IMG/VR virus record: IMGVR_UViG_3300031687_001562
Location: 1 to 28,928 of that record
DNA from: a virus
DNA length: 28,928 nt
Direction: 5' to 3' (one strand)
Positions within the stretch are counted from its first letter, which is position 1; the number at the start of each line of letters is the position of its first letter. Both the position numbers and the translations under genes were made by a program. Positions 7,401 to 25,173 of this stretch are shown piece by piece. Below the pieces are notes generated by a model. It had not been told where the DNA came from, ran no database searches, and was given only the letters and a program-made list of their open reading frames with translations.

Positions 7401-10400
7401 GATATTACAGATTTAAGATGGCAAAAAGAAATAAGTAGAGCATTAGGTTTAGACTTACAAGAAACTATGTATGATGTTATGGGTAGAAGCACCGTAGATT
7501 ATACTAACTTTTTAGATAAGTTTATAGTAGAAGCTTTTGAAATGATGGATCAAAACTTAATAAACAATAGATACAAAGATCTTGTTGTTAAAGTTGTTGA
7601 TAGACAAGGTTCAACACAATCATCATTAGATAAGAAAGTTAAAAGCAAAACAGCTGGTAATGCTTTGTTTGAAAAATTACCTAAAACTAAAGAAGAATTA
7701 GTAGAATACTTTTTAAAGCGTGGTAGAAAAGAAAGTTTAGCTCAAGTGTTAGGCACAGAGTTTGCTCACGATGCAACAATGGAAGTTTTAGCTGAACCAG
7801 AAATAATGAGTAAAGCTGAACAAGTACTTGTTAATAAAAACAACTTAAAAAATCAAGCTTTAACATCTCTTATAGCTAAACAAATAGGTAGAGACTCAAA
7901 ATTAAAATTTAGTAAAGTTTTAGATTTAGATCAAAAGGCTGAATTTGTTGAAAAAAGCCAACCGTTTATAAACTTGATTAAAGGTTTTCCAGTAAACAGA
8001 AAAAACATAATAAACGCACTAGCTGTTCAGTTTCCTAATTGGGATGCTAAAACATTAAATAGCTTTGCTGGAGAAATAATTAATCCAATAAGTAGATATT
8101 TAGATCCAAAACTTAAAAATAAAGGTATAAAAAATAAAAACATAGATCCTTCAACTTTTATTTTTGAAAGTTTAAATTTAAAAATAAATAAACAAAACGA
8201 TAACATAAATAAAATAACTGGAAATAAAGAATCTTTTAGAGATTTGTTCTTTAATGATGATAAGCAAGCTAATGTTAAAGAAAATCTTAAAAACTACTTT
8301 TTAGACTCTATGAGTAAAGAGGTAATTATAGATGGTAAAAAAACTAAAGTGCCAATAACTAATGACAAAGAGGTGATAAAGGTTCTTCAAGGTTTAATGC
8401 TTCATAAATCTCACAACACTGTTGGTGGTAAAAACTTTAAAAAAAGATACCAGTCTTATAGTAGCGCTAAAGATTTTTACGACAATACATTTGCTTTTAT
8501 ACCAAATGTCACTGTAGTAGGTACTAAAACAAAACAAGGAATGTCTTACGCAATACATTATAAAGGTGTTAAGGTTAATTTTCCTCCAGCTGTATCACAA
8601 TCAACTAAACTAGCGGTAAAAGGTAAAAGAGTTAATAAAGCTAAAGCATGGTGGGTAGAAAACTATAATGACTATAAAGAAAGTGCAAAAAGAAACTTTG
8701 ATGAAGTTAATAGGTATTTAGCTTACGTAGCTAAAATAGAAGATACTAGTGTTAAAGCTATGATGATAATGTCAATGAAGCAAGGTATGGGTTCTATGCT
8801 GAAGTCTGCTGCTCGTGTTGAATATCATTATGAAAGTAATTACAAAGGTGAACTGATGTTTGAACACATGGTACCTACTGAAAAAGCCTTGTTTGATTTA
8901 TTAAGCTTTCACTCAGGTAATAAAAAATATACATTAAAACAAATACAAGACCAATACGTTGTTGCTATTATTCCGAAAACAATGGACAACAATATAAACG
9001 TTATATTTAATCAAGATAGATTATCTAGTTTTGATTACATAACTGACGACGCTAGTTTACTATATTATAATCCTGCTACGTTTGGTTACACAAACATGTA
9101 TGCTATGAAATCTGTTAGCGGCGAAGGAGAAGTAATAGGCGAGCAATGGTCTAATTTTAAAGGAAAAATAAACAGTAAAAAAAATCAACAAGCTTTAAAT
9201 AGACTTAATAAGATACAAGATATAAGAAACAACAACTATAAGTTTTCTAAAACTCCTGATAAGGGTATGAGCATATTTGATTTTGATGACACACTAGCTC
9301 AATCAAACAGTATGGTTGGTGTTAAAATGCCTGATGGTAAGAAAAGAAAAATAAATGCTACAGAGTTTGCTATTGAATCAGCTGACTTAGAAGCTGCTGG
9401 AGCTACTTTTGATTTTAGTGAGTTTAATAAAGTAATAGATGGTAAGAAAGGACCTTTCTTTGATTTAGCTCAACAAATAAATAGTAAGTTTGGTAGTAAA
9501 GAAATATATGTATTAACAGCAAGACCACAAGAAGCTTCTTATGCAATACATGCTTTTCTAAAAGGTATGGGATTAAATATACCTTTAGAAAACATAACTG
9601 GATTAGAAGATGGTAAAGCATCTGCAAAAGCTGATTGGGTTATAGCTAAAGTAGCTGATGGTTACAACAATATTTTATTTGCTGATGATGCAATAAAAAA
9701 TGTTAAGGCTGTAAAAGAAGTATTAGAAATAGCAGAAGTAAAAAATGACGTAAGACAAGCTAAGCTTAAGTTTAGTAAAACACTAGATGAAAACTTTAAC
9801 ACTATACTAGAAAGGAAGTCTGGTATTAATAAGAACGAAGAATACAGTAAAGCCGCTGGTAAAGCTGCTGGACTAGGTAAAGGTAAGTATAAGTTTTGGA
9901 TGCCACCATCAGCTGAAGACTTTATGGGTTTAATGTATAACATTTTACCCTCTGGCGAAGCTGGTAATAAATCTCTTAAGTTTTTAACACAAGCTTTGAT
10001 AGATCCATACTGGGCAGGTACAAGATCACTTAACGCTGCAAAGCAAGCTTTAGGTAATGATTTTAGTGCTTTAAAGAAAAGGTTTCCTAAAGCGTTTAAA
10101 AGCTTATTAAAAGATGTTGGTCATAAACAATATTCAAATGAGCAAGCTATAAGAGTTTATCTTTGGAACAAGGCTGGATTTGAAATACCAGGTATGTCTA
10201 AGGTAGATATAGAGAAGTTATCTGATATAGTAAGAAACAATAGTAACATGAGAGGTTTTGCTGATTTAGTCGGCGCTACAACGAAGTTAAAAGAAGGTTA
10301 TATAAAACCTGGTCAAGACTGGGTTAGTGGCACTATAGCTTATGATTACTTTAGTATAGCTCAAAAAACAAATAGAAAAAAGTTCTTAGCTAGCTGGATA

Positions 10401-15170: not shown

Positions 15171-15293
15171 ATGAAGTTTTTTGATTTAAACAATAACGGT
15201 AAATACGATTGGTGGGAATATATCTTACCTATTTTATTGTTATTATGTGTAGAAATTATAGCTGAACTTGTAGCTAAATCTTTGATACCTTAG
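15171..15293 (+). CDS. 40-aa membrane protein with EF-hand-like loop
   Basis: The ORF encodes MKFFDLNNNGKYDWWEYI followed by a hydrophobic helix LPILLLLCVEIIAELVAK and a short end. Residues 5-16 form a complete 12-position EF-hand loop: D5, N7, N9, G10, D13 and E16 occupy positions 1, 3, 5, 6, 9 and 12. It starts 1 base after the basic protein, is the last rightward gene and overlaps the leftward sialyltransferase-like gene by 20 bases tail-to-tail. A holin or holin-modulator role is possible but unproven. Short length makes the call moderate, though the loop plus helix are unlikely to be chance. Confidence 0.6.
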   Translation: MKFFDLNNNGKYDWWEYILPILLLLCVEIIAELVAKSLIP

Positions 15294-16062
15294 ATTTTTT
15301 AGGTGCAGCTTTTATAAGCTTCTCACCCTTCATCCAGCCATCATATTTTATTATACTAGAATTGGTGTCACTAATTAAGTGCCACTTAACTTCTCCTCTT
15401 CTTTCTAAGAAAGAAACATACTGTTGTTCCATATCTTTATCATGAGCTGACTTATCCATAACATAACATGGTAAATGCCAACTATGAGGATCAGCCATAC
15501 TTAAAGTACCTCTCTTGTCTCTTAGACCTGGTATATGTACTGTCTTTGCAAAAAAGTCGAAGCCTATAAGATCAATAGATTTATAGGTTTTTATTTTGTT
15601 TATAAACCAAAGTAATGTTATAAAACCAGCACTTGGTCTCAAGTCTTGTTTGAATAAGTTTTTACCAAACATACTCATAACCTCAACTAATTCTTCATCT
15701 GAATACATCTCTGTATAACTAGGAAAATTCTCTGGCAATCTATTCTCTAAGATCCAGTCTTTTAAACGAAAGTTTCCTCTACATCTATTTAAAAGAATCT
15801 TAGTATTTTTAAACTTACCCTTCTTAAACTTAGTTTTAGCAGTATTAAAGCACGGTGCTCTAAATTGACCCGTTGCCCATATATCACATTTAGTTCCTAT
15901 TGACTCTTCTTGTTCGGTTGTTGCTAATAAAGCTCTACCAAACCTAACAACAATATCGTAGGAATCTATAGTCTTACCAAGCTTATGCTTCATAATTTCT
16001 ACAGAATTACCTACGAATACTATTCTTTTATTTTTTACAGCTCGCTGTATACTTTCCACCAT
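15274..16062 (-). CDS. GT29 sialyltransferase-like glycosyltransferase, 262 aa
   Basis: Contains the sialylmotifs of GT29-type transferases. The L-motif region is VFVGNS (15-20) followed by LGKTIDSYDIVVRFG (28-42), close to the VVGNSG…G..ID..D.V.R.N pattern. The S-motif region is RPSAGFITL (142-150) with IDLIGFDFF (163-171). A VS-type H-x4-E is seen at H207-E212. The donor in characterised family members is CMP-sialic acid; what this phage enzyme transfers and to what acceptor cannot be told. There is no signal or membrane anchor, so it acts in the cytoplasm. It is the last gene of the leftward arm, overlaps the upstream glycosyltransferase by 28 bases and follows cupin/dioxygenase and RNR genes. 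Confidence 0.75.
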   Translation of the reverse strand: MVESIQRAVKNKRIVFVGNSVEIMKHKLGKTIDSYDIVVRFGRALLATTEQEESIGTKCDIWATGQFRAPCFNTAKTKFKKGKFKNTKILLNRCRGNFRLKDWILENRLPENFPSYTEMYSDEELVEVMSMFGKNLFKQDLRPSAGFITLLWFINKIKTYKSIDLIGFDFFAKTVHIPGLRDKRGTLSMADPHSWHLPCYVMDKSAHDKDMEQQYVSFLERRGEVKWHLISDTNSSIIKYDGWMKGEKLIKAAPKKSKVSKI

Positions 16063-16712
16063 TCTTCAGATAATTCAGAATCTTTATATTCATCAAACCA
16101 AGGTCCACCTTCTGTGTAGTGTATAGCCCTTGCATTGTTTTTAGTTATTTTGTCTATACCTACTAGCATATTATATCTTTTAGGTAACTCACCTATAGCT
16201 TTTTCATTTAAAAACTTAAACTCATGTAGTTGAGATGGTGATGCATTGTCTAAATATTCTTTTGATAGTTTGTTTTTTAATTTGTTACAGTTAAATAACA
16301 TTAAGCTAGACCAATTCTTTTTAGGATATGATTTATTAACTATACCGTCCATTTTATTTGACTTAGCTTCATAGTCTTCATGTTTAACTACAGATATAGC
16401 GCTTTCATTCATGTATCTACTTATCTCTTGAGGATTTACCCTCCATAAGAAATCATTATCACAAAAAATAGCGTATCCGTTATAGTTCATTAAAAGAGGT
16501 ACATAAAATCTTGTAAAAGAAAATTCAGTTGATTCTCCCTCTACATCTTCTCTTTCATAAATACCATTTTTCTTTAACACTGACTTATCTAAATAAGTTA
16601 TCTTAGCTTCTGGCCAATACTTTAATATTGAAGCCCTGCATACTTTACTTGCTTGAGGGTACTTTGAATCGTGCCCTATAAAAATTCTAATACTTCCTGG
16701 TTTTTTATTCAT
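16035..16712 (-). CDS. GT8-like GT-A fold glycosyltransferase, 225 aa
   Basis: The N-terminus IRIFIGHDSKYPQASKVCRASIL is the usual nucleotide-sugar-binding start of GT8-like transferases. A DxD metal/nucleotide site is present as FCDNDFLW (D85, D87), and the C-terminal IHYTEGGPWFDEY (around 197-209) matches the conserved HYTxGxPW box. It should transfer a sugar from an NDP-sugar in the cytoplasm; donor and acceptor are unknown. Its ATG overlaps the upstream cupin gene by 8 bases and its end overlaps the sialyltransferase-like gene, so the pair is translationally coupled and probably acts in sequence on one acceptor. Confidence 0.75.
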   Translation of the reverse strand: MNKKPGSIRIFIGHDSKYPQASKVCRASILKYWPEAKITYLDKSVLKKNGIYEREDVEGESTEFSFTRFYVPLLMNYNGYAIFCDNDFLWRVNPQEISRYMNESAISVVKHEDYEAKSNKMDGIVNKSYPKKNWSSLMLFNCNKLKNKLSKEYLDNASPSQLHEFKFLNEKAIGELPKRYNMLVGIDKITKNNARAIHYTEGGPWFDEYKDSELSEEWWKVYSEL

Positions 16713-17094
16713 TGTTTACTTTTTTACCTGATGTTTTTCTAGTTATGTCGTCATGATTAAACTCTGCCCAATACAGTTCAAATGCAACTCCATCTTCTTT
16801 ACCTTCAAACTGATGATACTTACCTGGTTTTACCATTGTAAAATCTCCAGGTTTTAATATTGTCTCATCTACAAGACCTTGATCGTCTTGCCAGACTCTT
16901 ATTATCATCTCTCCAGACTCTACAAAAAAACCGTTCCATTTAAATTTATGCTCATGTTCTGAGCACTTATATCCTTTATTAAATTCTATTCGGTGAAACT
17001 CTAGTACTCCGTTTTTGTGTACCATTTCGGTTGCACCCCATACTTTTCCTGCTTTCATTTTTTCTGATTGTGTTTGAAGTAAGGTCTCTTCCAA
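16705..17094 (-). CDS. Small cupin-domain protein, 129 aa
   Basis: A single cupin barrel. Motif 1 is CSEHEHKFKWNGFFVESGE with the metal-binding HxH and a downstream Glu; motif 2 is PGDFTMVKPGKYHQFEG with the third His. Single cupins of this kind include sugar-nucleotide epimerases/isomerases and small dioxygenases as well as non-catalytic binders; nothing here chooses among them, but two coupled glycosyltransferases downstream favour a sugar-related role. The gene overlaps the cupin_4 gene upstream by 40 bases, a rather long overlap; a downstream Met at residue 13 (MKAGKVWG) is an alternative start that would remove most of it. Confidence 0.7.
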   Translation of the reverse strand: MEETLLQTQSEKMKAGKVWGATEMVHKNGVLEFHRIEFNKGYKCSEHEHKFKWNGFFVESGEMIIRVWQDDQGLVDETILKPGDFTMVKPGKYHQFEGKEDGVAFELYWAEFNHDDITRKTSGKKVNNE

Positions 17095-17873
17095 CCATTA
17101 GATGTCATTGGAAACCTTCTATTTATTATTACTTGTTTTTTTGGTTTTTCTAATACATCTACCATATTAAGCCATTTCTCTCTTCTATTATCCTTATCAC
17201 TTGATATAACAAACTTATCTAAGCTTTGTTTTGGTTTGTTAGTAAAATGTATACTACAAAGTATTCTAGGCCCAATAGTTTCTACCTTATGAAACTGATA
17301 TTGAGGTATGTATAGCAAATCGCCTTCATCTAGTATAAACTCGTCTAGTATTTCTTTAGGTTTATTAGGAATAAACTCTTTATATATAGTCCATTTAACC
17401 TTACCATATTGGTGAAACAAAAAGTTCTCTGTTTGATCTGCGTGAGCAGGAAAGCTTTTAGATCCAGCTTTAGGTGAAACATAAACATTGACTTGGCCTT
17501 GTTTAAAGTATTTCTCAAACTCAAACAACATATCTAACAACTGCTTGTTTTCATACTCCGCAAAAGGTATAACAAAAGATTTACCTTTAGTCCAAAGATC
17601 GTGTATTCCTTTTCTAGTAAAAAACTTTTGTTTTATTTTACCAGACTTAACCTTGTCTAAACACCATCTGTTATCTTCATCATCAAAATCTAATATTTGA
17701 AGATGCTTAATATTTGGGTATCTATTTATATACTTTGTTAAATGACCCCAGTTAAATAAGTTTTTATACTTATTTCTTCTAATTACCAAGTGTTTTTTGT
17801 TCCAATACTCTTTAAAGAAAAGACTAACTGGTATAGGATCTAATATGTCTTTTATTGTTATTTGTTTTTCCAT
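17055..17873 (-). CDS. Cupin_4/JmjC-type Fe(II)/2-oxoglutarate oxygenase-like protein, 272 aa
   Basis: The opening ILDPIPVSLFFKEYWNKKHLVIRR is the characteristic N-terminus of cupin_4/JmjC oxygenases ('F…W.KKPL.I.R'). The iron facial triad is visible as FPAHADQTENF (H144, D146) and YIPQYQFHKVET (H195), and the intervening FLFHQYGKVKWTIY matches the strand that supplies 2-oxoglutarate-binding residues. Known relatives hydroxylate ribosomal proteins, other proteins or small molecules; the phage substrate is unknown. It abuts nrdA (sharing one base) and precedes cupin and glycosyltransferase genes, so hydroxylation of a base, sugar or protein followed by glycosylation is an attractive but untested idea. 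Confidence 0.75.
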   Translation of the reverse strand: MEKQITIKDILDPIPVSLFFKEYWNKKHLVIRRNKYKNLFNWGHLTKYINRYPNIKHLQILDFDDEDNRWCLDKVKSGKIKQKFFTRKGIHDLWTKGKSFVIPFAEYENKQLLDMLFEFEKYFKQGQVNVYVSPKAGSKSFPAHADQTENFLFHQYGKVKWTIYKEFIPNKPKEILDEFILDEGDLLYIPQYQFHKVETIGPRILCSIHFTNKPKQSLDKFVISSDKDNRREKWLNMVDVLEKPKKQVIINRRFPMTSNGWKRPYFKHNQKK

Positions 17874-19594
17874 TATCCGTCACAGCTTACACAGTTTTCA
17901 GACGTAGCTTCTTTAGCTATGTCACCTCTAAGAACAGACTCTGTTCTCATATAGTATAGGGTTTTAATACCTTTTTTCCAAGCATCTAAATGAACCTTGT
18001 TTATAAACTTAGGTTCTGCTTCTGATGGAAATGCTAAATTTAAACTAACAGCTTGATCTATATATTGTTGTCTTATTCCTGCTTGGTTAATTAGTTCTAG
18101 CTGATTGATTTCTTTGAAAGTTCTGAAGACTTCTTTGAGCGGTATGTCGTGATCGCCCAATGTAATTTTCTCTAATGCTTTTACGTCCTGCACCGAGCCC
18201 CCGTCCTTTAAGATCTGGTCCCATATTTTTTTATTATTTAAATTGTTTTCTTCTAATACTTTTTCAAGAGTTGGGTTTTTACGTATGAACGTACCTTTTG
18301 CGCTTTGGTCTGTAAAGACATTAGCAGCCCAAGGCTCAATTCCAGGACTAATATTCCCAGATAACTTACTGTTGCTAACAGTAGGAGCAATAGCTCTAAG
18401 ATGAGTGTTCCTAAATCCTGTGCCAACGCACCATAATGGTTCACCATAAGCTTCTGCCAACGCCATGCTAGCCCTTTCCGATTCGATTTTAATTTGCGAA
18501 AATATTCTTCTTGTTTCATATTGTGATAATAATCCTTCGAAAGGTAAACCTTTCTGTTGTAAATAAGTATGCCATCCAACTACACCTAAACCTAATGCTC
18601 TACCTTTTTCAGCAGATCTTACAGAGTTTTCAAAACCTCTTCTGTTTTTAGCTTTTTGTATAAACTCTTCTAATACACCATCTAAAAACCATATACTATC
18701 ATATATTAAATTACTGTTCTTCCACTCGTGATACTTAGATAAGTTTAAACTAGATAAACAACATATAAAGCTATGATTTTCATCTGTGTGTAAAGTTATT
18801 TCACTACAGATATTAGTCATGTGTACTTTTAATGCATTGTCTTTATAAGCAGAAGGGTTATTTTTATTAACATTACCCTTAAACATTATATAAGGTTCTC
18901 CTGTAGCTTTACGCTTTTGTAACAACTTACCCCATTTACGTCTAGCAACTTTATCTCCATCTCTAAGCTTTCTCATAAACTTATCACCTACGACTGCACA
19001 TTGATGTAGATTAAGTGATTGACGGTTTACATCACCCTTAGGTTCTCTTATTTCAACCCAGTCTTCAAAGTCTTCATGTTCAATGTTTAGATTTACAGAT
19101 GCTGCTCCTCTTCTAACTGATCCTTGATTTGTAGCTAAAATAGTAGAATCATATATTTTACAAAAAGGTACAACACCATCTGATGTGCCGTTACCTGTTA
19201 TGTTTGATCCTGCTGGTCTTATTTGGTTTATACCAATACCAACTCCGCCTCCGTGTTTAGCTAGCAACATCATTTCTAAATTCTTTTGGCCAATGTCTAT
19301 TATACTATCTGCGACATCAATACCAAAACAACTTATTGGCATACCTCTATCAGTACCAGTGTTACTAAGAACAGGACTAGCAAGACAGAGCCAACCTTTC
19401 CAAATGTAATCAAAAAAGACTTCCTCCATTTCTTTCTTCTGTAATCTAGTCGCAACTGTTTTAGCAACTCTTCTGTACGCTTGTCTTGGTGTTTCATCTT
19501 CTAATAAATATCCTCCTTGTATTGTTTTCTTGTATACGTCAGACTCAGCCCAACTTGGGTAGTCTACACCTTTTTTCCATCTATTACTCCACAT
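17873..19594 (-). CDS. nrdA: Class I ribonucleotide reductase large subunit, 573 aa
   Basis: Catalytic features of the class I alpha subunit are all visible: C89 in the PISCFGI strand, the NICSE active-site loop (N261, C263, E265), Cys278/279 in the FICCLSSLNL loop, the LYYMRT tyrosine pair of the radical path, and a C-terminal CVSC pair (C568, C571) for re-reduction. The enzyme converts ribonucleoside diphosphates to deoxy forms with NrdB. At 573 residues it is much shorter than cellular NrdA (~760), mainly because it starts at the barrel-side region and lacks the N-terminal ATP-cone, so dATP feedback inhibition is probably absent, as in many phage enzymes. It is coupled to the 40-aa gene upstream by TAATG. 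Confidence 0.93.
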   Translation of the reverse strand: MWSNRWKKGVDYPSWAESDVYKKTIQGGYLLEDETPRQAYRRVAKTVATRLQKKEMEEVFFDYIWKGWLCLASPVLSNTGTDRGMPISCFGIDVADSIIDIGQKNLEMMLLAKHGGGVGIGINQIRPAGSNITGNGTSDGVVPFCKIYDSTILATNQGSVRRGAASVNLNIEHEDFEDWVEIREPKGDVNRQSLNLHQCAVVGDKFMRKLRDGDKVARRKWGKLLQKRKATGEPYIMFKGNVNKNNPSAYKDNALKVHMTNICSEITLHTDENHSFICCLSSLNLSKYHEWKNSNLIYDSIWFLDGVLEEFIQKAKNRRGFENSVRSAEKGRALGLGVVGWHTYLQQKGLPFEGLLSQYETRRIFSQIKIESERASMALAEAYGEPLWCVGTGFRNTHLRAIAPTVSNSKLSGNISPGIEPWAANVFTDQSAKGTFIRKNPTLEKVLEENNLNNKKIWDQILKDGGSVQDVKALEKITLGDHDIPLKEVFRTFKEINQLELINQAGIRQQYIDQAVSLNLAFPSEAEPKFINKVHLDAWKKGIKTLYYMRTESVLRGDIAKEATSENCVSCDG

Positions 19595-19721: not shown

Positions 19722-19973
19722 TTATGTTATTAAGTGTTTAATCCAAGCAAATAAACCATTAAGGTTTAATGCTACTAAATTCCATTGTTTTCTCGATCCT
19801 GTTTGTATCATAACACAAATAAAACCTACTATGTATAGCATCGGCTCTAAAGTCCACTGAGCTGCAACTAGAAAACCGGCACCCATATATCCAATACGGG
19901 TAGCCATTCTTTCTAGTGGTTTTAATTGTCTTCTTCTTTCAACAAGAAATTTTCTCCATTTATAATTTACCAT
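19722..19973 (-). CDS. Two-helix small membrane protein between nrdB and nrdA, 83 aa
   Basis: A basic N-terminus (MVNYKWRKFLVERRRQLK) precedes two hydrophobic segments, around residues 24-42 (TRIGYMGAGFLVAAQW) and 45-58 (MLYIVGFICVMIQTG), and a short polar/aromatic tail. The ATG overlaps the end of nrdB by 7 bases. No family is recognised. A membrane protein in the middle of an RNR operon is not explained by nucleotide reduction; it may simply be an inserted accessory gene. Confidence 0.55.
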   Translation of the reverse strand: MVNYKWRKFLVERRRQLKPLERMATRIGYMGAGFLVAAQWTLEPMLYIVGFICVMIQTGSRKQWNLVALNLNGLFAWIKHLIT

Positions 19974-20935
19974 ACATCTTCAAAATCTTCTCCTTCATTT
20001 GCTTTACTATAGTCAGTTGACCTAATCGCGAAAAAATCAGTGTGGGTATGACCCCCAGTAAGATGATAGAACCAATCCAAATTACCCGCTGCTTCTTCGT
20101 CATATGAGAAGTACGATCCAAGATCGATGTAACCCAATTCCGTAAGTTTTTCATTTGTTCTTTTTCTTATAAATTGTTTTAAGTCATAAGCTTTAATGCC
20201 TTCAATGTCACCCATTTCAAACATCTTATCTATATACTTTTCTTCTAGCTCAACCATTATCTTAGATGCATCTATTATGTCTTCTCTACAATCTTGCAAA
20301 AGAGTTTTATCTTCATCACACATGTGTCTAAACAACTGACAACCCATTCTACTGTGTAAAGATTCATCTCTTACGGACCATTTCATTTGTTGCCCGATCC
20401 CTTTGAGTAAATTACGTAGCTGAAAGCTATAAAGTACTGCAAAAGCAGAATATAAAGAAACTCCCTCTGCGAAAGCAGAAAAAACAGCCAATGACTTTCC
20501 GATACCGACTCTATCGTTGCCATCATATGCAACGAGGTTGTCAAAACGATCAGCCGTAGCAGGTTCATGTAAGAACGCTTCATAATCTTCTAATTTTAAT
20601 GTTTCATTTAAATAACTATACGCTACAGCGTGTACAGTTTCCTGTGAGCCAAACATCATAGCCATTTGTTGTATCTCGTGCTTTGGAAACCACGATACTA
20701 CCTTCTGCGTCCAGTAATCACTTACTGCACATTCAGTTTGAGCAAAACCTAATAGGATATTTCCTACTAGGTGTTTCTCTTTTACTGTTAAAGATTCGTT
20801 CCAATCCTTAACATCTCCACTCATTGGTATTTCAGTATGTAACCAAAATGCTTGAGCTTGTTTTAACCAACCCTCAGTATAATACTCAGGGTAGTCAAAT
20901 GGTTTGTATGCGATACGCTCATCAAATAATCCCAT
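19967..20935 (-). CDS. nrdB: Class I ribonucleotide reductase small subunit, 322 aa
   Basis: A ferritin-like radical-generating subunit. Metal ligands can be placed as E99 and H102 (SQETVH), E157 (AEGVSLYSAF), E191 and H194 (RDESLH), and the radical Tyr position is occupied (Y106, four residues after H102). The remaining ligand, normally Asp (E. coli D84), aligns with E68 in GFAQTECAVSDYW; Glu there is the class Ic (Chlamydia) state, although those enzymes lack the Tyr. The C-terminal EDFEDVW is an acidic/aromatic tail expected to dock into NrdA. Full length for the family. It supplies the radical for ribonucleotide reduction in the cytoplasm. Confidence 0.93.
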   Translation of the reverse strand: MGLFDERIAYKPFDYPEYYTEGWLKQAQAFWLHTEIPMSGDVKDWNESLTVKEKHLVGNILLGFAQTECAVSDYWTQKVVSWFPKHEIQQMAMMFGSQETVHAVAYSYLNETLKLEDYEAFLHEPATADRFDNLVAYDGNDRVGIGKSLAVFSAFAEGVSLYSAFAVLYSFQLRNLLKGIGQQMKWSVRDESLHSRMGCQLFRHMCDEDKTLLQDCREDIIDASKIMVELEEKYIDKMFEMGDIEGIKAYDLKQFIRKRTNEKLTELGYIDLGSYFSYDEEAAGNLDWFYHLTGGHTHTDFFAIRSTDYSKANEGEDFEDVW

Positions 20936-21079: not shown

Positions 21080-21524
21080 CTATTTTTTTTATAAGTTCAA
21101 CAGTCATATCACACTCTTTTTGATTTTGAGGTTTATACAGGGTAAAAGGTCCTATCCTATTGTTTGCCATTAGCTTTTTAAACATCTTCCATCTTAATGG
21201 AAAAGATTCGTTAGCTCTACCTTTTGTTTCAATTACAAAACCTTTACCTATAAAGTCAGGCGTGTATTTTATATTTAAAATCTTTTTATTACCTCTGTTT
21301 TTATAATCACCCTTTCCATTACCGCATCTTTCATAAGATTCAAATGGAAAATCAAAAGCTTCAACCAGTTCAAATGTTTGGCCCTCGTAAAGAGCCTTGA
21401 TCTTGGCTTTTCTTAAAGCCATCCACATATAACGTTCTAAACCTGATGCAAAGTTTATCCCGTCATACGTAATTTTCTTAGACTGAACAGGTCCTTTTTT
21501 TCTTTTAAAGAATCTTTTCTTCAT
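21066..21524 (-). CDS. T7 gp3-like endonuclease I (PDDEXK Holliday-junction nuclease), 152 aa
   Basis: Active-site layout matches T7 endonuclease I: an early Glu in NFASGLERYMW (E30; T7 has FRSGLE), then KYTPDF (D90) and FVIETKG (E99, K101); T7 reads TYTPDF…IFVETKG. A ~35-residue charged insert (FESYERCGNGKGDYKNRGNK) separates the first and second parts. In T7 this enzyme resolves branched DNA before packaging and degrades host DNA. The C-terminal part is shorter than in T7. It overlaps the MazG-like gene upstream by 20 bases and lies in the replication/nucleotide operon. Confidence 0.75.
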   Translation of the reverse strand: MKKRFFKRKKGPVQSKKITYDGINFASGLERYMWMALRKAKIKALYEGQTFELVEAFDFPFESYERCGNGKGDYKNRGNKKILNIKYTPDFIGKGFVIETKGRANESFPLRWKMFKKLMANNRIGPFTLYKPQNQKECDMTVELIKKIDGGK

Positions 21525-21792
21525 TTACTTCTATATTGGTTACATCTGTAGTAAATCTTTTATAAGCAACTTCTTCTATCTCATCTTCTAAACATCTTCT
21601 AGCTGCTTGTATATACAGTATTGCATCCATTAGTTCTTCTTGTACATCAATTAGAAATCTATTAAGATCTTTTTCTTGACCTTCGATCTCTTGCATCATT
21701 GTAGCACCGTACTTTTTCTGGCCTATAAGGCTTCGTTCGTCCATCTTTCTTAAGACTTGTTGAACTATTTTATCTTCTGTTTTAATTCTCAT
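21505..21792 (-). CDS. MazG-like all-alpha nucleotide pyrophosphohydrolase-like protein, 95 aa
   Basis: An all-helical 95-residue protein. The stretch ERSLIGQKKYGATM (19-32) followed by FLIDVQEELMDAILYIQAA (46-64) matches small phage MazG-like/DUF550-type pyrophosphohydrolases ('R...G..KYG.TL…..EELMDA..YI'); the EExxD (E52, E53, D56) is the second metal-binding helix motif. The first ExxE motif is less clear, so activity is uncertain. It overlaps the fused MazG gene upstream by 11 bases; two such proteins in a row next to a hydroxymethylase and RNR suggest control of a specific dNTP pool. Confidence 0.6.
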   Translation of the reverse strand: MRIKTEDKIVQQVLRKMDERSLIGQKKYGATMMQEIEGQEKDLNRFLIDVQEELMDAILYIQAARRCLEDEIEEVAYKRFTTDVTNIEVNEEKIL

Positions 21793-22585
21793 CTTTCACA
21801 AATGTTCCGTTAATCATTTTTCCTGTTCTCTTGTTTATAACTTCATATGCTGTTGCTATACACGTTTCAATATCAACACCTTCTAAATGTGCTAAGTTTG
21901 TAAGTACAACAACCATATCACCAATAGCGTCAATTATTTCTGGCTTATCATTTTTTAATAAAGCTTTTGCAAGCTCTCCAGCCTCTTCTTGTAATTTAAC
22001 GTATTGCGTGTGTGAATTACCTTCATCATATAAGCCTCTGTCTTTGGCCCATGTTCTTATAAGATCAAACATTTTGTCTGTTGGTTTATCATTAGTTGAT
22101 TCTAGTATAAACATATCGACATTGCTATCAGGTGTTCTGTTTGTGAAGTTTGATAAAGCTTTGTTGTATACGTAGCATCTATCATTATTAAACATGGAGG
22201 TTTTAACGTTGTTCATGATCCAATGAACCATTTCAACTGTTACTTTAAATTCTCCATATTCTGGGTGTTGCCATTTTATCCCTATGTTATCCATAAGTTG
22301 TCCTTTTAGTTTATTAACTGGACAAGGGAAGGTTGTGGTTTGTTCGGTCACGTTTATTTTCATACTGTTTGTTGGTTTAAGGTTTTTGTATGGTACCATA
22401 TCTACTCGGTACCCATATTCTCTCTGTCTCTCTAACTCTAAAGAAGATATATAATCTATATCATCTGAGCTTTCTAATATTTCATATTCATCGGGTGAAT
22501 AGCCTTGTTGTATTGTGACCCGGTTATTAAGATCACAGGTAACGCCTATCTTTTTACCCGGAATGTGGTATAAATGATATGTCAT
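21782..22585 (-). CDS. GIY-YIG-like domain fused to MazG-type nucleotide pyrophosphohydrolase, 267 aa
   Basis: Two domains are visible. Residues ~1-62 (MTYHLYHIPGKKIGVTCDLNNR…LELERQREYGYRVD) resemble a GIY-YIG nuclease core: first strand HLY, second strand KIGVT followed by an Arg, and a helix ending QREYGY. Residues ~160-255 are a MazG fold: LQEEAGELAKAL (E201, E204) and PEIIDAIGDMVVVL (E216, D219, D223) form ExxE…ExxD. The middle (70-155) contains an FPCPV segment and is unassigned. MazG enzymes hydrolyse NTPs or dNTPs to monophosphates. Location directly after the hydroxymethylase-like gene (4-base overlap) suggests it supplies a deoxynucleoside monophosphate, as T4 gp56 dCTPase does for gp42. 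The nuclease-like part may be structural only. Confidence 0.65.
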   Translation of the reverse strand: MTYHLYHIPGKKIGVTCDLNNRVTIQQGYSPDEYEILESSDDIDYISSLELERQREYGYRVDMVPYKNLKPTNSMKINVTEQTTTFPCPVNKLKGQLMDNIGIKWQHPEYGEFKVTVEMVHWIMNNVKTSMFNNDRCYVYNKALSNFTNRTPDSNVDMFILESTNDKPTDKMFDLIRTWAKDRGLYDEGNSHTQYVKLQEEAGELAKALLKNDKPEIIDAIGDMVVVLTNLAHLEGVDIETCIATAYEVINKRTGKMINGTFVKDEN

Positions 22586-23223
22586 AATTTATCGTTATAT
22601 ATGTGCATGTTATGTGCGTGATGGTAATACCATCCGACGTCAATAGACAGTCTGTCTGCAATCATTTTCATCAATGATGTAAATTGATATTGATCATTAC
22701 AGAAACCGTACCAGATGTCATTAGAACGCATATAAACAGACATGTTAAGCTTATTGTCTATTATTGTAAACTGTATTGCATAAGTACACGGCGTATCTTT
22801 AGCATACGTGTTGTGTTCTTTACAGTCGTATATACTGATAGCCGCGTGTCTAGTGTTAGGGTTGTCTCTTAATTTAGCAACAACATAATCTATTTGATTA
22901 TTACGTTGCCATTGCCAACCATAGTTAGATCTTACATTTCTATCGCTATCAGCCATTGTTTCCCATATAGGTGGAACCTTACCATATAATTCACCTAGCT
23001 TATCTATACTAGGATCTCCTGATAAGTACCATTGCCATTCAGCTTCTGCATATTCATGAGACCATTTTCTAAACTTATTTTTAATATGATTATCCATTGG
23101 GTCTGAAATTGTAAAGCCAACATTAAACAAAGCTTTGGTATTATCAAAGTCTGCACCTGTTGTTATAAGCTCATGCATTATACAATTAAAAGCTTCGTTA
23201 GCGTGTGTGAATTTTCTTCGCAT
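22582..23223 (-). CDS. Thymidylate-synthase-fold deoxypyrimidine hydroxymethylase, probable dCMP hydroxymethylase
   Basis: Numbering from the Met at 23223 (213 aa): catalytic C146 in DTPCTYAIQF, substrate-binding R166 and D169 in YMRSNDIWYGFCND, E62 in AEWQWYL, Y101 in SNYGWQW, and H207/Y209 in NMHIYND. Thymidylate synthases read …G.PFN at the next site; here it is GFCND, placing Asp (D177) where TS has the uracil-selective Asn. This Asn-to-Asp change is the known hallmark of dCMP hydroxymethylase, and T4 gp42 reads MRSNDVVFGFRND at this place. The His after the catalytic Cys is Thr. A longer version starting at 23283 is open but would overlap the upstream gene by 86 bases, so the later start is preferred. 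Predicted reaction: dCMP plus methylene-THF to 5-hydroxymethyl-dCMP. Confidence 0.8.
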   Translation of the reverse strand: MRRKFTHANEAFNCIMHELITTGADFDNTKALFNVGFTISDPMDNHIKNKFRKWSHEYAEAEWQWYLSGDPSIDKLGELYGKVPPIWETMADSDRNVRSNYGWQWQRNNQIDYVVAKLRDNPNTRHAAISIYDCKEHNTYAKDTPCTYAIQFTIIDNKLNMSVYMRSNDIWYGFCNDQYQFTSLMKMIADRLSIDVGWYYHHAHNMHIYNDKL

Positions 23224-23467
23224 ATTTTTCGTAATAGTATTTATAATAGTTAAATATAACTTCCCATAGTTCTCTAGAATCATAATACTTAGGTGATCTA
23301 TTTATCTTACCGTTTATATTTATGTCTATATACCAACTCATAAAGTTTTCTTTACAAAAAGGTGATATATATATTCCATTGTTTATACACCAGTGATATG
23401 CTTTGTATTCATCACTGTTGTAAGAGTAACCGGGATCTCTTTGTTTTTTCTTTCTCATGCTTCCCAA
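23198..23467 (-). CDS. Uncharacterised Tyr/Lys-rich protein, 89 aa
   Basis: An 89-residue basic protein (MGSMRKKKQRDPGYSYNSDEYKAYHWCINNGIYISPF…KYYYEKYAKKIHTR), rich in Tyr, Lys and Asn, with no membrane segment or known motif. The YKAYHWCINNGIYISPF part looks like a small alpha/beta unit. Its start overlaps the primase-helicase end by 13 bases and its end overlaps the hydroxymethylase by 26 bases. A second possible start is Met4. Function unknown. Confidence 0.6.
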   Translation of the reverse strand: MGSMRKKKQRDPGYSYNSDEYKAYHWCINNGIYISPFCKENFMSWYIDININGKINRSPKYYDSRELWEVIFNYYKYYYEKYAKKIHTR

Positions 23468-25173
23468 GGCATAGGTTCAGCTTCGTTTACCGCATTTATT
23501 TGTGGTATAAAAGAACCAGATCTATGTTCCCATGTAAAGAAGGATTCTGCTCCGTTCTCACCTAGGTTTTGAAACTTACATTTTAATACTTTAACTTTAG
23601 TATTTTTAGCTTCATAATCTCTGTGTACTAACAGACCGTGATAACTAGCATCATACCATTCACCACCACCTTTTATATTATACATTGTAGGTTCTTCTAT
23701 CTTTCCATCTTGGCCTTTATACATTTTAGTTGGATGTGCTACTATAAATGTTAAAACATCATACTTTTTACAAAAGGCTTCTATCTTTGCTAGATAGTCC
23801 ATAGTATATCTATTAACATCATCTGAAACTGCATTTGTATCTCTAACCTTGTTGAAAGGATCAATAACTAAGCATTTAATACCTTTACGTTTGACTAGCT
23901 CAGCACCTTTACGTAGTACTGATTCTAAGCTATATTTATCCATGTCTATGAAATAATAGTTATCATTAACATGATCGGAAACTTCTTTCCATTTACTGTT
24001 GCCAATATCACCAGGTGCAGGCATATCACCCCAGGTCTTACGCATAAGCTTGTGGGCGTGTAAATATATGGGTGCATTCTCAGGACTAGCAAAAGCTGTC
24101 TTCCAACCATACATCTTATTATAACCTACTACCATCTGATCAACGAAATCTGACTTTCCGCTACTAGGTATCCCAGTAACAGTGATAAACTGGCCAGTAT
24201 AAGTACTGAACACACTATCAAAGTTAGACAAACCAATTTGAAAGCCAGGCTTGAAGCCATTTTTGACAAAATCTTTAAGTTCATTTTCTATATTTTTAAG
24301 GGTTGTTACGTTTTCTAACGGTACAGCATGCGCAGCGTGTATAGCAACTTTTAGTGCTTCTACACCATGTGCTTGCAAATACTCATTAGCATCTTTACAA
24401 CCTTCAAAATCTATTAAAAAACAATTCTCAGCGCCTAGCCTACGTATAAACTCTTGTCTAAGCATATTGCCAGGTTCATCAGCATCTACAGCTAATATTA
24501 TTTTCTCTTTGTCATCAAAGTAATCAATACAATTATCTAGGTAATCTAGGTTATTGTGATTAAGTGTCGCCCCATTAGGTACTGATATTACATTAGGCAA
24601 ACCTGCTTCATGTAATGCCAAGACATCCATTTCACCTTCAACTATTATACAAGTGTCATGACCTACAATACTATTTATATTGTAAAAGATCTTTTCAGCA
24701 CCTTTATATAGTTTAAAGTTTTTACGCCCGTCTCGGTATTTAATATTAATGAGCTTGTTACCCATATAATAATTAAACTTTATCGCGTTCTCATTCTTAC
24801 CAGTCTGTGGCATAAACTCAGAACCCTCGCCGACATCTAAGTCGACAAGAGTTTTCTGAGATATACCTCTAGACTTAAACCATTCAACAACTTTACTACT
24901 TGGTACTTTAGATGGTTCCATATTTGGAACCGTATATTCTCTATCGCTAGTACCTTTACGTTGATACGTGTGTAATTGAAAAGTTGAATCACAGTTGTGA
25001 CAAGTACCGAGACCACGTTCCCAATCATAAGAAGCACATTTCTTTTTCTTATTCTCAGGTTTCCTTGTGTGTGAACAAACAGGGCATGTGCCTTGTGTTT
25101 TACCTACTTCAAGGTTGTGTTGATTGAAATCATCAATCAAAAATCCATTAATCTCTCTTTCTTCTACTTGCAT
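23455..25173 (-). CDS. T7 gp4-like DNA primase-helicase, 572 aa
   Basis: Three parts are clear. An N-terminal zinc-binding domain: CPVC (C30, C33) and CHNC (C58, C61). A TOPRIM primase core: IIVEGEMD (E179-D183) and ILAVDADEPG (D230, D232). A RecA-like DnaB-family helicase: Walker A GIPSSGKS (334-341), Walker B-type CLVIDPFNKV, and a downstream FIVAHPTK segment. The length matches bifunctional primase-helicases of T7-like phages. It unwinds DNA and lays primers at the replication fork. A 17-base AT leader precedes the ATG, and a 32-aa zinc ribbon and an SSB-like gene lie directly upstream. Confidence 0.92.
   Translation of the reverse strand: MQVEEREINGFLIDDFNQHNLEVGKTQGTCPVCSHTRKPENKKKKCASYDWERGLGTCHNCDSTFQLHTYQRKGTSDREYTVPNMEPSKVPSSKVVEWFKSRGISQKTLVDLDVGEGSEFMPQTGKNENAIKFNYYMGNKLINIKYRDGRKNFKLYKGAEKIFYNINSIVGHDTCIIVEGEMDVLALHEAGLPNVISVPNGATLNHNNLDYLDNCIDYFDDKEKIILAVDADEPGNMLRQEFIRRLGAENCFLIDFEGCKDANEYLQAHGVEALKVAIHAAHAVPLENVTTLKNIENELKDFVKNGFKPGFQIGLSNFDSVFSTYTGQFITVTGIPSSGKSDFVDQMVVGYNKMYGWKTAFASPENAPIYLHAHKLMRKTWGDMPAPGDIGNSKWKEVSDHVNDNYYFIDMDKYSLESVLRKGAELVKRKGIKCLVIDPFNKVRDTNAVSDDVNRYTMDYLAKIEAFCKKYDVLTFIVAHPTKMYKGQDGKIEEPTMYNIKGGGEWYDASYHGLLVHRDYEAKNTKVKVLKCKFQNLGENGAESFFTWEHRSGSFIPQINAVNEAEPMPWEA

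Follow-up and report, generated by a model that had tools for sequence, protein, structure and literature searches.

A thymidylate synthase fold gene on the minus strand

We examined a 28,928-base virus record (IMG/VR record IMGVR_UViG_3300031687_001562; hereafter the window, meaning the whole stretch of DNA analysed), focusing on a gene that occupies positions 22582-23223 on the minus strand and encodes a 213-amino-acid protein of thymidylate synthase (TS) fold. From the fold, the active-site residues, their conservation in close relatives and the gene neighbourhood, all read from sequence, we infer that this gene very probably encodes a deoxycytidine monophosphate (dCMP) 5-hydroxymethylase. 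The gene and three of its active-site codons are located as follows.

22582..23223, minus strand: candidate dCMP hydroxymethylase, 213 amino acids, TS fold (stop codon at 22582-22584; PF00303; PHROG 160)
22693..22695, minus strand: Asp177 codon GAT, cytosine-specificity site (E. coli N177, T4 D179), placed by alignments
22786..22788, minus strand: catalytic Cys146 codon TGT, placed by alignments
22795..22797, minus strand: Asp143 codon GAT, three residues before the Cys (T4 D145), placed by alignments and the excerpt of PMC6400193

The protein matched Pfam PF00303 with an E value of 1.6e-25, and therefore not by chance, and PHROG 160 with an E value of 5.7e-39; both families bear the name thymidylate synthase. 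These matches bear out the original prediction of a TS-fold enzyme at 22582-23223, which had given the coordinates correctly and omitted the strand; the plus strand over the same interval is riddled with stops. Eight NCBIfam thymidylate synthase models also matched, all below their cut-offs (best 79.2 versus 327 bits).

Relatives were drawn from an IMG/VR scan that gave 217 pattern hits and 216 relatives, the best 80 of which were analysed as loci. These 80 loci come from 79 contigs, share 70-100% identity and had been selected for their likeness to the window protein; 33 of them were also searched as whole records, of 33 to 71.5 kb. The mechanical open reading frame spans 22582-23283 (233 amino acids), but the real start is likely the ATG at 23223 and not 23283, because that codon is ATG in 62 of the 80 related loci. 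Of the other 18, 17 have different codons there, where the start may shift slightly, and 1 does not reach the site. At the other end, the genome search ran the TS profile past the stop. We rejected a longer read-through product because further stops lie in frame beyond, a stop directly follows residue 213 in 77 of the 80 loci and the next gene starts there. The resulting C-terminus is short, with four residues after Y209, and the C-terminal tail with which TS seals the folate site is absent.

Active-site residues and comparison with known enzymes

Numbered as in E. coli ThyA, the protein keeps C146, R166, D169, H207 and Y209, the catalytic set listed in the original prediction, and likewise S167. 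MAFFT and HMMER alignments with T4 gp42 and MilA, the Streptomyces cytidine monophosphate (CMP) 5-hydroxymethylase, place D177 on E. coli N177 and T4 D179, the Asp thus falling on the N177 site and not away from it. The motifs SNYGW, MRSND and GFCND had also been correctly read against SNYGW, MRSND and GFRND in T4. GFCND occurs in all 29 aligned members, while SNYGW occurs in 10 of them and SNYGY in the remaining 19.

Position 177 sets the choice between cytosine and uracil, not the product. According to PMC8670742, exchanging this Asn for Asp turns a thymidylate synthase into a dCMP methylase; PMC13390438 treats the hydroxymethylase and the 5-hydroxy-dCMP synthase of RB69-type phages as homologues. 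Asp177 is likewise present in the RB69 protein, whose sequence is almost that of the HY126 enzyme forming 5-hydroxy-dCMP (540 bits). Because dCMP methylase and 5-hydroxy-dCMP synthases carry Asp at this site too, Asp177 is insufficient for a hydroxymethylase call. The originally predicted dCMP hydroxymethylase thus stands as the best reading on the strength of the T4 signature and the folate-side residues, and not of the Asn-to-Asp switch by itself.

PMC6400193 gives the T4 hydroxymethylation signature as Ser94, Tyr96 and an Asp, Asp145, located three residues ahead of the catalytic Cys; D145 is the water-activating residue, and thymidylate synthase has Leu in its place. The window protein has D143, S99 and Y101, identical to this signature. 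In E. coli ThyA, Pro aligns at the Ser site; the residue three positions ahead of the Cys is Leu, as its sequence LAPC shows, the alignment column being gapped. The folate-activating Glu (T4 E60) is present as E62, and E62, S99, Y101, D143, T147, D169, G173 and D177 all match T4 gp42. PMC8670742 singles out positions 147 and 177 as the best discriminators between TS genes from modified and from unmodified contigs; position 147 is Thr in the window protein, as in T4, and His in E. coli. The Trp at the E. coli W80 site does not discriminate, since the window protein and T4 gp42 alike retain it. None of the 15 residues checked varies across the 80 related viral loci, which speaks for constancy within the clade only, because these loci are close relatives picked by similarity.

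The protein shares with T4 gp42 the TS fold, the Cys, the equivalents of Asp177 and Glu62, the Asp three residues before the Cys and the Ser-x-Tyr pair; gp42 likewise lacks the TS C-terminal tail and likewise lies in a replication gene block. The two are 27% identical over 200 aligned residues, the window protein being shorter (213 versus 246 amino acids), and T4 has a beta-glucosyltransferase adjoining gp42 whereas the window has none there. MilA is the best sequence match among solved structures and shares Asp177 and the Asp three before the Cys. According to the excerpt of PMC5175136, Lys133 and Ala176 give MilA its preference for CMP; at these ribose-selecting sites the window protein has Arg125 and Ser167, which are of the deoxynucleotide type, unlike MilA, and do not fit a CMP hydroxymethylase. 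The HY126/RB69 5-hydroxy-dCMP synthase (9iqc, 9iqu) shares the fold, Asp177 and the Cys, and the RB69 protein is 20.8% identical to ours; RB69 ORF048 differs at E62, D169, G173 and Y209 of the window protein, which are F, N, V and F there, and at W87, S99 and D143, which are V, T and E. E62, D169, G173 and Y209 may accordingly mark the cofactor used, as judged from one enzyme type. The Ackermannvirus May enzyme, which we take to act on deoxyuridine monophosphate, has Asp at 143 and no Asp at 177.

Among phages, the best match in the collection searched is gene 00032 of Bacteroides phage BF486P2, a full-length homologue (42.9% identical, or 44.5% over aligned residues) with the same 14 key residues, annotated by its depositors as deoxycytidylate 5-hydroxymethyltransferase. 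A further, divergent copy, gene 00027, is present in BF486P2. Each of the 33 whole-searched relatives has a single TS-family gene (relative G004 counts twice in this search because its ends repeat). Both TS-family genes of BF486P2 (L082, 9168-9929 and 12001-12681) are annotated dCMP hydroxymethyltransferase; in the copy at 9168-9929, Leu replaces both the folate-activating Glu and Gly173, and this copy may catalyse another reaction. The homologues in Lactobacillus phage ATCCB and Enterococcus phage VPE25 have all 14 tabulated residues as in the window protein. A gene annotated beta-glucosyltransferase follows the homologue in ATCCB; in VPE25 one with this annotation is two genes further along.

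In a single-sequence search of solved chains, MilA scored 77 bits, T4 gp42 71, the best thymidylate synthase (6auj) 62 and HY126 41; a 29-member profile again placed MilA first, at 89 bits, with HY126 at 53. An AlphaFold2 model (mean predicted local distance difference test, pLDDT, 82.6) was compared with solved structures using VIA-align, where, below the highest matches discussed further on, T4 gp42 (1b49) reached Z 19.8 and no thymidylate synthase exceeded 18.9. Fold comparison with this predicted model cannot separate a hydroxymethylase from a hydroxylase or a synthase. A search of viral structures gave matches mostly named thymidylate synthase. A tree of 53 rows, including 5 of 8 loci from bacterial bins (L100, L102 and L105 were left out), recovered a clade of 40 rows around the window protein with support of 98/97. 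A Saprospiraceae-bin copy joins this clade at lower support (92/78), and BF486P2 groups outside it with copy L104 from a Sphingobacteriaceae bin (98/87).

Gene neighbourhood, pathway and alternative reactions

The gene lies in a block with genes for nucleotide metabolism and replication.

21782..22585, minus strand: MazG-type protein, 267 amino acids (PF01503 and PF03819 over cut-off; C-terminal all-alpha nucleoside triphosphate (NTP) pyrophosphatase domain)
21505..21792, minus strand: 95-amino-acid protein (PHROG 11184, function unknown; in 75 of 80 loci, 77 of which extend that far)
19967..20935, minus strand: NrdB, ribonucleotide reductase small chain (PF00268, E 2.4e-56; in 74 of 80 loci, 76 extending that far)
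17873..19594, minus strand: NrdA, ribonucleotide reductase large chain (PF02867, E 2.2e-89; in 68 of 80 loci, 71 extending that far)
23455..25173, minus strand: primase-helicase, upstream in the same gene block (PHROG 239, E 5.2e-82; in 76 of 80 loci)

The start codon of the MazG-type gene overlaps the stop of the hydroxymethylase candidate, and the gene stands at the expected place downstream in all 80 loci. We regard its product as a candidate deoxycytidine triphosphate (dCTP) pyrophosphatase that would feed dCMP to the enzyme; among solved structures it found weak MazG-type matches only. Its N-terminal part, about residues 1-105, has no Pfam or PHROG match. The adjoining 95-amino-acid protein, with no Pfam or NCBIfam match and no convincing match among solved structures, is possibly a second small NTP pyrophosphatase, as judged by eye. 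The presence of PF01503 beside PF00303 agrees with the co-occurrence of these families on contigs selected for modified cytosine, as reported in the excerpt of PMC8670742. The same excerpt lists DNA-ligase families as enriched on such contigs; a DNA ligase in 27 of the 33 whole-searched relatives fits this MetaGPA list and is not specific (the ligase of relative G001 matches PF01068 and PF14743). In the same 33 records, ThyX was found in none and dCMP deaminase in one.

In the mechanism that we propose, Asp177 would bind dCMP and Cys146 would attack C6, while a one-carbon unit from methylene-tetrahydrofolate would be activated through Glu62. Water held by Asp143 and Ser99 would then add to the exocyclic methylene, yielding 5-hydroxymethyl-dCMP (hm-dCMP) where a thymidylate synthase would transfer a hydride. 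Conversion of dCTP to dCMP is the probable role of the neighbouring MazG-type protein, with the phage ribonucleotide reductase feeding the pool. A kinase of the phage or its host would presumably phosphorylate hm-dCMP for incorporation into the phage DNA, which may thereby be shielded from host restriction. We consider it likely, with rather less confidence than we place in the enzyme assignment, that the virion DNA contains hydroxymethylcytosine (hmC).

A number of results weigh against this interpretation or limit what speaks for it. The 29-member profile scores T4 gp42 (77.8 bits) and thymidylate synthase 6auj (77.6) alike, and the loop carrying Cys146 and Asp143 is poorly modelled (mean pLDDT 52-64 over residues 121-150). 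The deep branches of the tree are saturated and unresolved, with T4 gp42, RB69 and ThyA on very long branches, and function was not read from it. Residue identity in 80 loci is weaker evidence than the number suggests, these being close, similarity-picked relatives, and a homologue that has these 14 residues too, in Agathobaculum phage AB434P2, is annotated deoxyuridylate hydroxymethyltransferase. The top VIA-align match is the HY126 dCMP hydroxylase (9iqc, Z 22.9; 9iqu, 22.6), tied with MilA (22.1), and the titles of PDB entries 9iqc and 9iqu name a flavin adenine dinucleotide (FAD)-linked monooxygenase, the phage HY126 dCMP hydroxylase. These matches raise the alternative of an FAD-dependent 5-hydroxy-dCMP synthase of the RB69 type, in which the same Asp would bind dCMP and oxygen would be added directly to C5. 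RB69-type phages perform 5-hydroxylation and then attach sugars, and the window has glycosyltransferase-like genes in the same block; Asp177 and the Cys are also common to RB69, which has an acidic residue (Glu) three positions ahead of the Cys. Yet E62, D169, G173 and Y209, replaced in RB69, are kept in all 80 related loci, and HY126 scores under the hydroxymethylases in both sequence searches (41 versus 77 bits; 53 versus 89 with the profile), making such an enzyme improbable here. We give as little weight to a dCMP methylase forming 5-methyl-dCMP, as in Xp12: an Asn-to-Asp thymidylate synthase does methylate dCMP (PMC8670742, excerpt) and the Trp at the W80 site is kept, though T4 gp42 keeps it as well, but the protein has Asp143 and Ser99 where E. 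coli ThyA, the comparison used, has Leu and Pro, and the tail that seals the TS active site is missing. An ordinary thymidylate synthase, the name that both the Pfam and the PHROG family would assign, is hardly credible given Asp for Asn at 177, Asp143, the lack of the C-terminal tail and scores under the NCBIfam cut-offs.

A hydroxymethylase might make a product that is not built into DNA, for example draining or poisoning the host dCTP pool. No hm-dCMP kinase and no known hmC-modifying enzyme was recognised in the relatives searched, and the missing kinase is the main gap: unlike T4, none of the 33 whole-searched relatives has a T4-type deoxynucleotide kinase (PF21448), and a Walker A scan of two long relatives gave the primase-helicase and non-kinase-like matches only. 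Carbamoyltransferase and TAGT were likewise found in 0 of 33 (controls matched 3 of 14 and 1 of 14, respectively), as was T4 beta-glucosyltransferase, but its control matched nowhere either, which leaves that negative uninformative. Absence from these relatives is not proof, because IMG/VR records may be fragments. Small proteins of no assigned function or a host kinase could phosphorylate hm-dCMP, and the adjacent MazG-type gene in 80 of 80 loci is what we would expect of a cytosine-replacing phage. A product kept out of DNA is therefore unlikely in our judgement, if marginally less so than either the hydroxylase or the methylase.

Accessory cassette, host range and scope

Beyond NrdA, the window carries a cassette of four genes.

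17055..17873, minus strand: JmjC_2/cupin-like protein, first cassette gene (PF08007; in 19 of 62 loci)
16705..17094, minus strand: small cupin (PF07883; in 19 of 62 loci)
16035..16712, minus strand: glycosyltransferase-like protein, GT8-type by eye (PHROG 28018, function unknown, E 2.8e-47; in 17 of 62 loci)
15274..16062, minus strand: GT29 (sialyltransferase-family) protein (PF00777; in 17 of 62 loci)

Counts refer to the 62 loci whose sequence continues for 1.5 kb or more beyond NrdA. The JmjC and cupin genes follow NrdA in 19 of these, 17 of which also have the GT8-like and GT29-family genes; by this clustering, the cassette is absent from the other 43. Eight of the 62 carry genes matching CTP_transf_3 and DAHP_synth_1, and four of these eight add a methyltransferase-like gene. 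The GT8-like protein has no Pfam match and found matches in 18 phage records, some relatives being annotated as glycosyl or nucleotide-sugar transferases. The GT29 assignment scored 31.1 bits against a cut-off of 23 while covering only profile positions 55-104 of 272, and this protein had no match among solved structures.

The CTP_transf_3 and DAHP_synth_1 genes, of which one representative each was tested, appear to be KdsB- and KdsA-like, which suggests transfer of a CMP-activated ulosonic acid. The target of the cassette could be hmC, a virion glycan or the host surface. It is conceivable, although we think it doubtful, that in the loci with the JmjC-cupin-GT8-GT29 cassette hmC bears a sugar chain whose terminal residue is an ulosonic acid of the Kdo or sialic type, the KdsA/KdsB-like enzymes making the CMP-sugar and the GT8/GT29-type proteins attaching it. 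If so, the product would be an acidic hypermodified cytosine; we know of no such base, although no literature search was made for one.

The GT8-like and GT29 homologues are adjacent in Stenotrophomonas phage DLP6 (DLP_6; L108, 11998-13432), a phage called T4-like in the available text of its own paper (PMC5349666), which gives no plain account of how its DNA responds to restriction. DLP6 is annotated with an FAD-dependent thymidylate synthase, and no hydroxymethylase was found in the two stretches inspected, PF00303 not having been searched genome-wide there. In Pelagibacter phage Mosig, a GT8-like gene lies near ribonucleotide reductase, methyltransferase and sulfotransferase genes. The GT8-GT29 pair was considered as a mark of hmC and rejected, as in neither DLP6 nor Mosig are these genes tied to a hydroxymethylase. 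The occurrence of the pair in DLP6 without a hydroxymethylase in the stretches inspected also weakens the reading of the cassette as DNA decoration.

The original prediction had placed the gene in a small-genome, flavobacterial-type phage. The size does not hold: the first 3,965 bases of relative G004 are repeated exactly at its end, implying a unit of 67,545 bp, and 32 of the 33 whole-searched relatives have records longer than 49 kb. A flavobacterial-type phage, in contrast, still appears likely, as does a host from Bacteroidota. The best cultured relative of the primase-helicase is in Cellulophaga phage phi10:1 (42%) and that of NrdA in Flavobacterium phage immuto (59.6%). The eight bacterial-bin loci are labelled Aliivibrio (3), Flavobacteriaceae, Saprospiraceae, Sphingobacteriaceae, Halieaceae and Verrucomicrobiales, binned contigs being weak evidence. 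The G+C content is 33.4%.

The chemistry is known and the case is new, the best cultured homologue (BF486P2) having already been annotated in this way by its depositor. Among the papers listed by our literature searches (in two of them, 12 of 185 and 10 of 13), none deals with enzymes of this type from phages that are marine, flavobacterial or of Bacteroidota. The assignment predicts that many related phages known without cultivation carry non-canonical cytosine: one IMG/VR scan gave 216 relatives, several with records of 60-70 kb. Such DNA could bias sequencing libraries and could meet restriction and type IV defences differently. For TS-family phage genes annotated simply as thymidylate synthase, we offer the residue set as a means of sorting, given that the Asn177-to-Asp mark is shared by 5-hydroxy-dCMP synthases and is not enough by itself to call a hydroxymethylase.

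Relative G001 showed further features of its own. It has a primase-helicase, ligase and ribonucleotide reductase, and no obvious DNA polymerase was seen among its open reading frames by eye, no family search having been made. One of its proteins (L091, 5404-5925) falls just under the cut-off for pyrimidine-dimer glycosylase (PF03013, 22.8 versus 23 bits), and the same genome encodes chaperonins of the GroEL and GroES families (L091, 12895-14701; PF00118 and PF00166).

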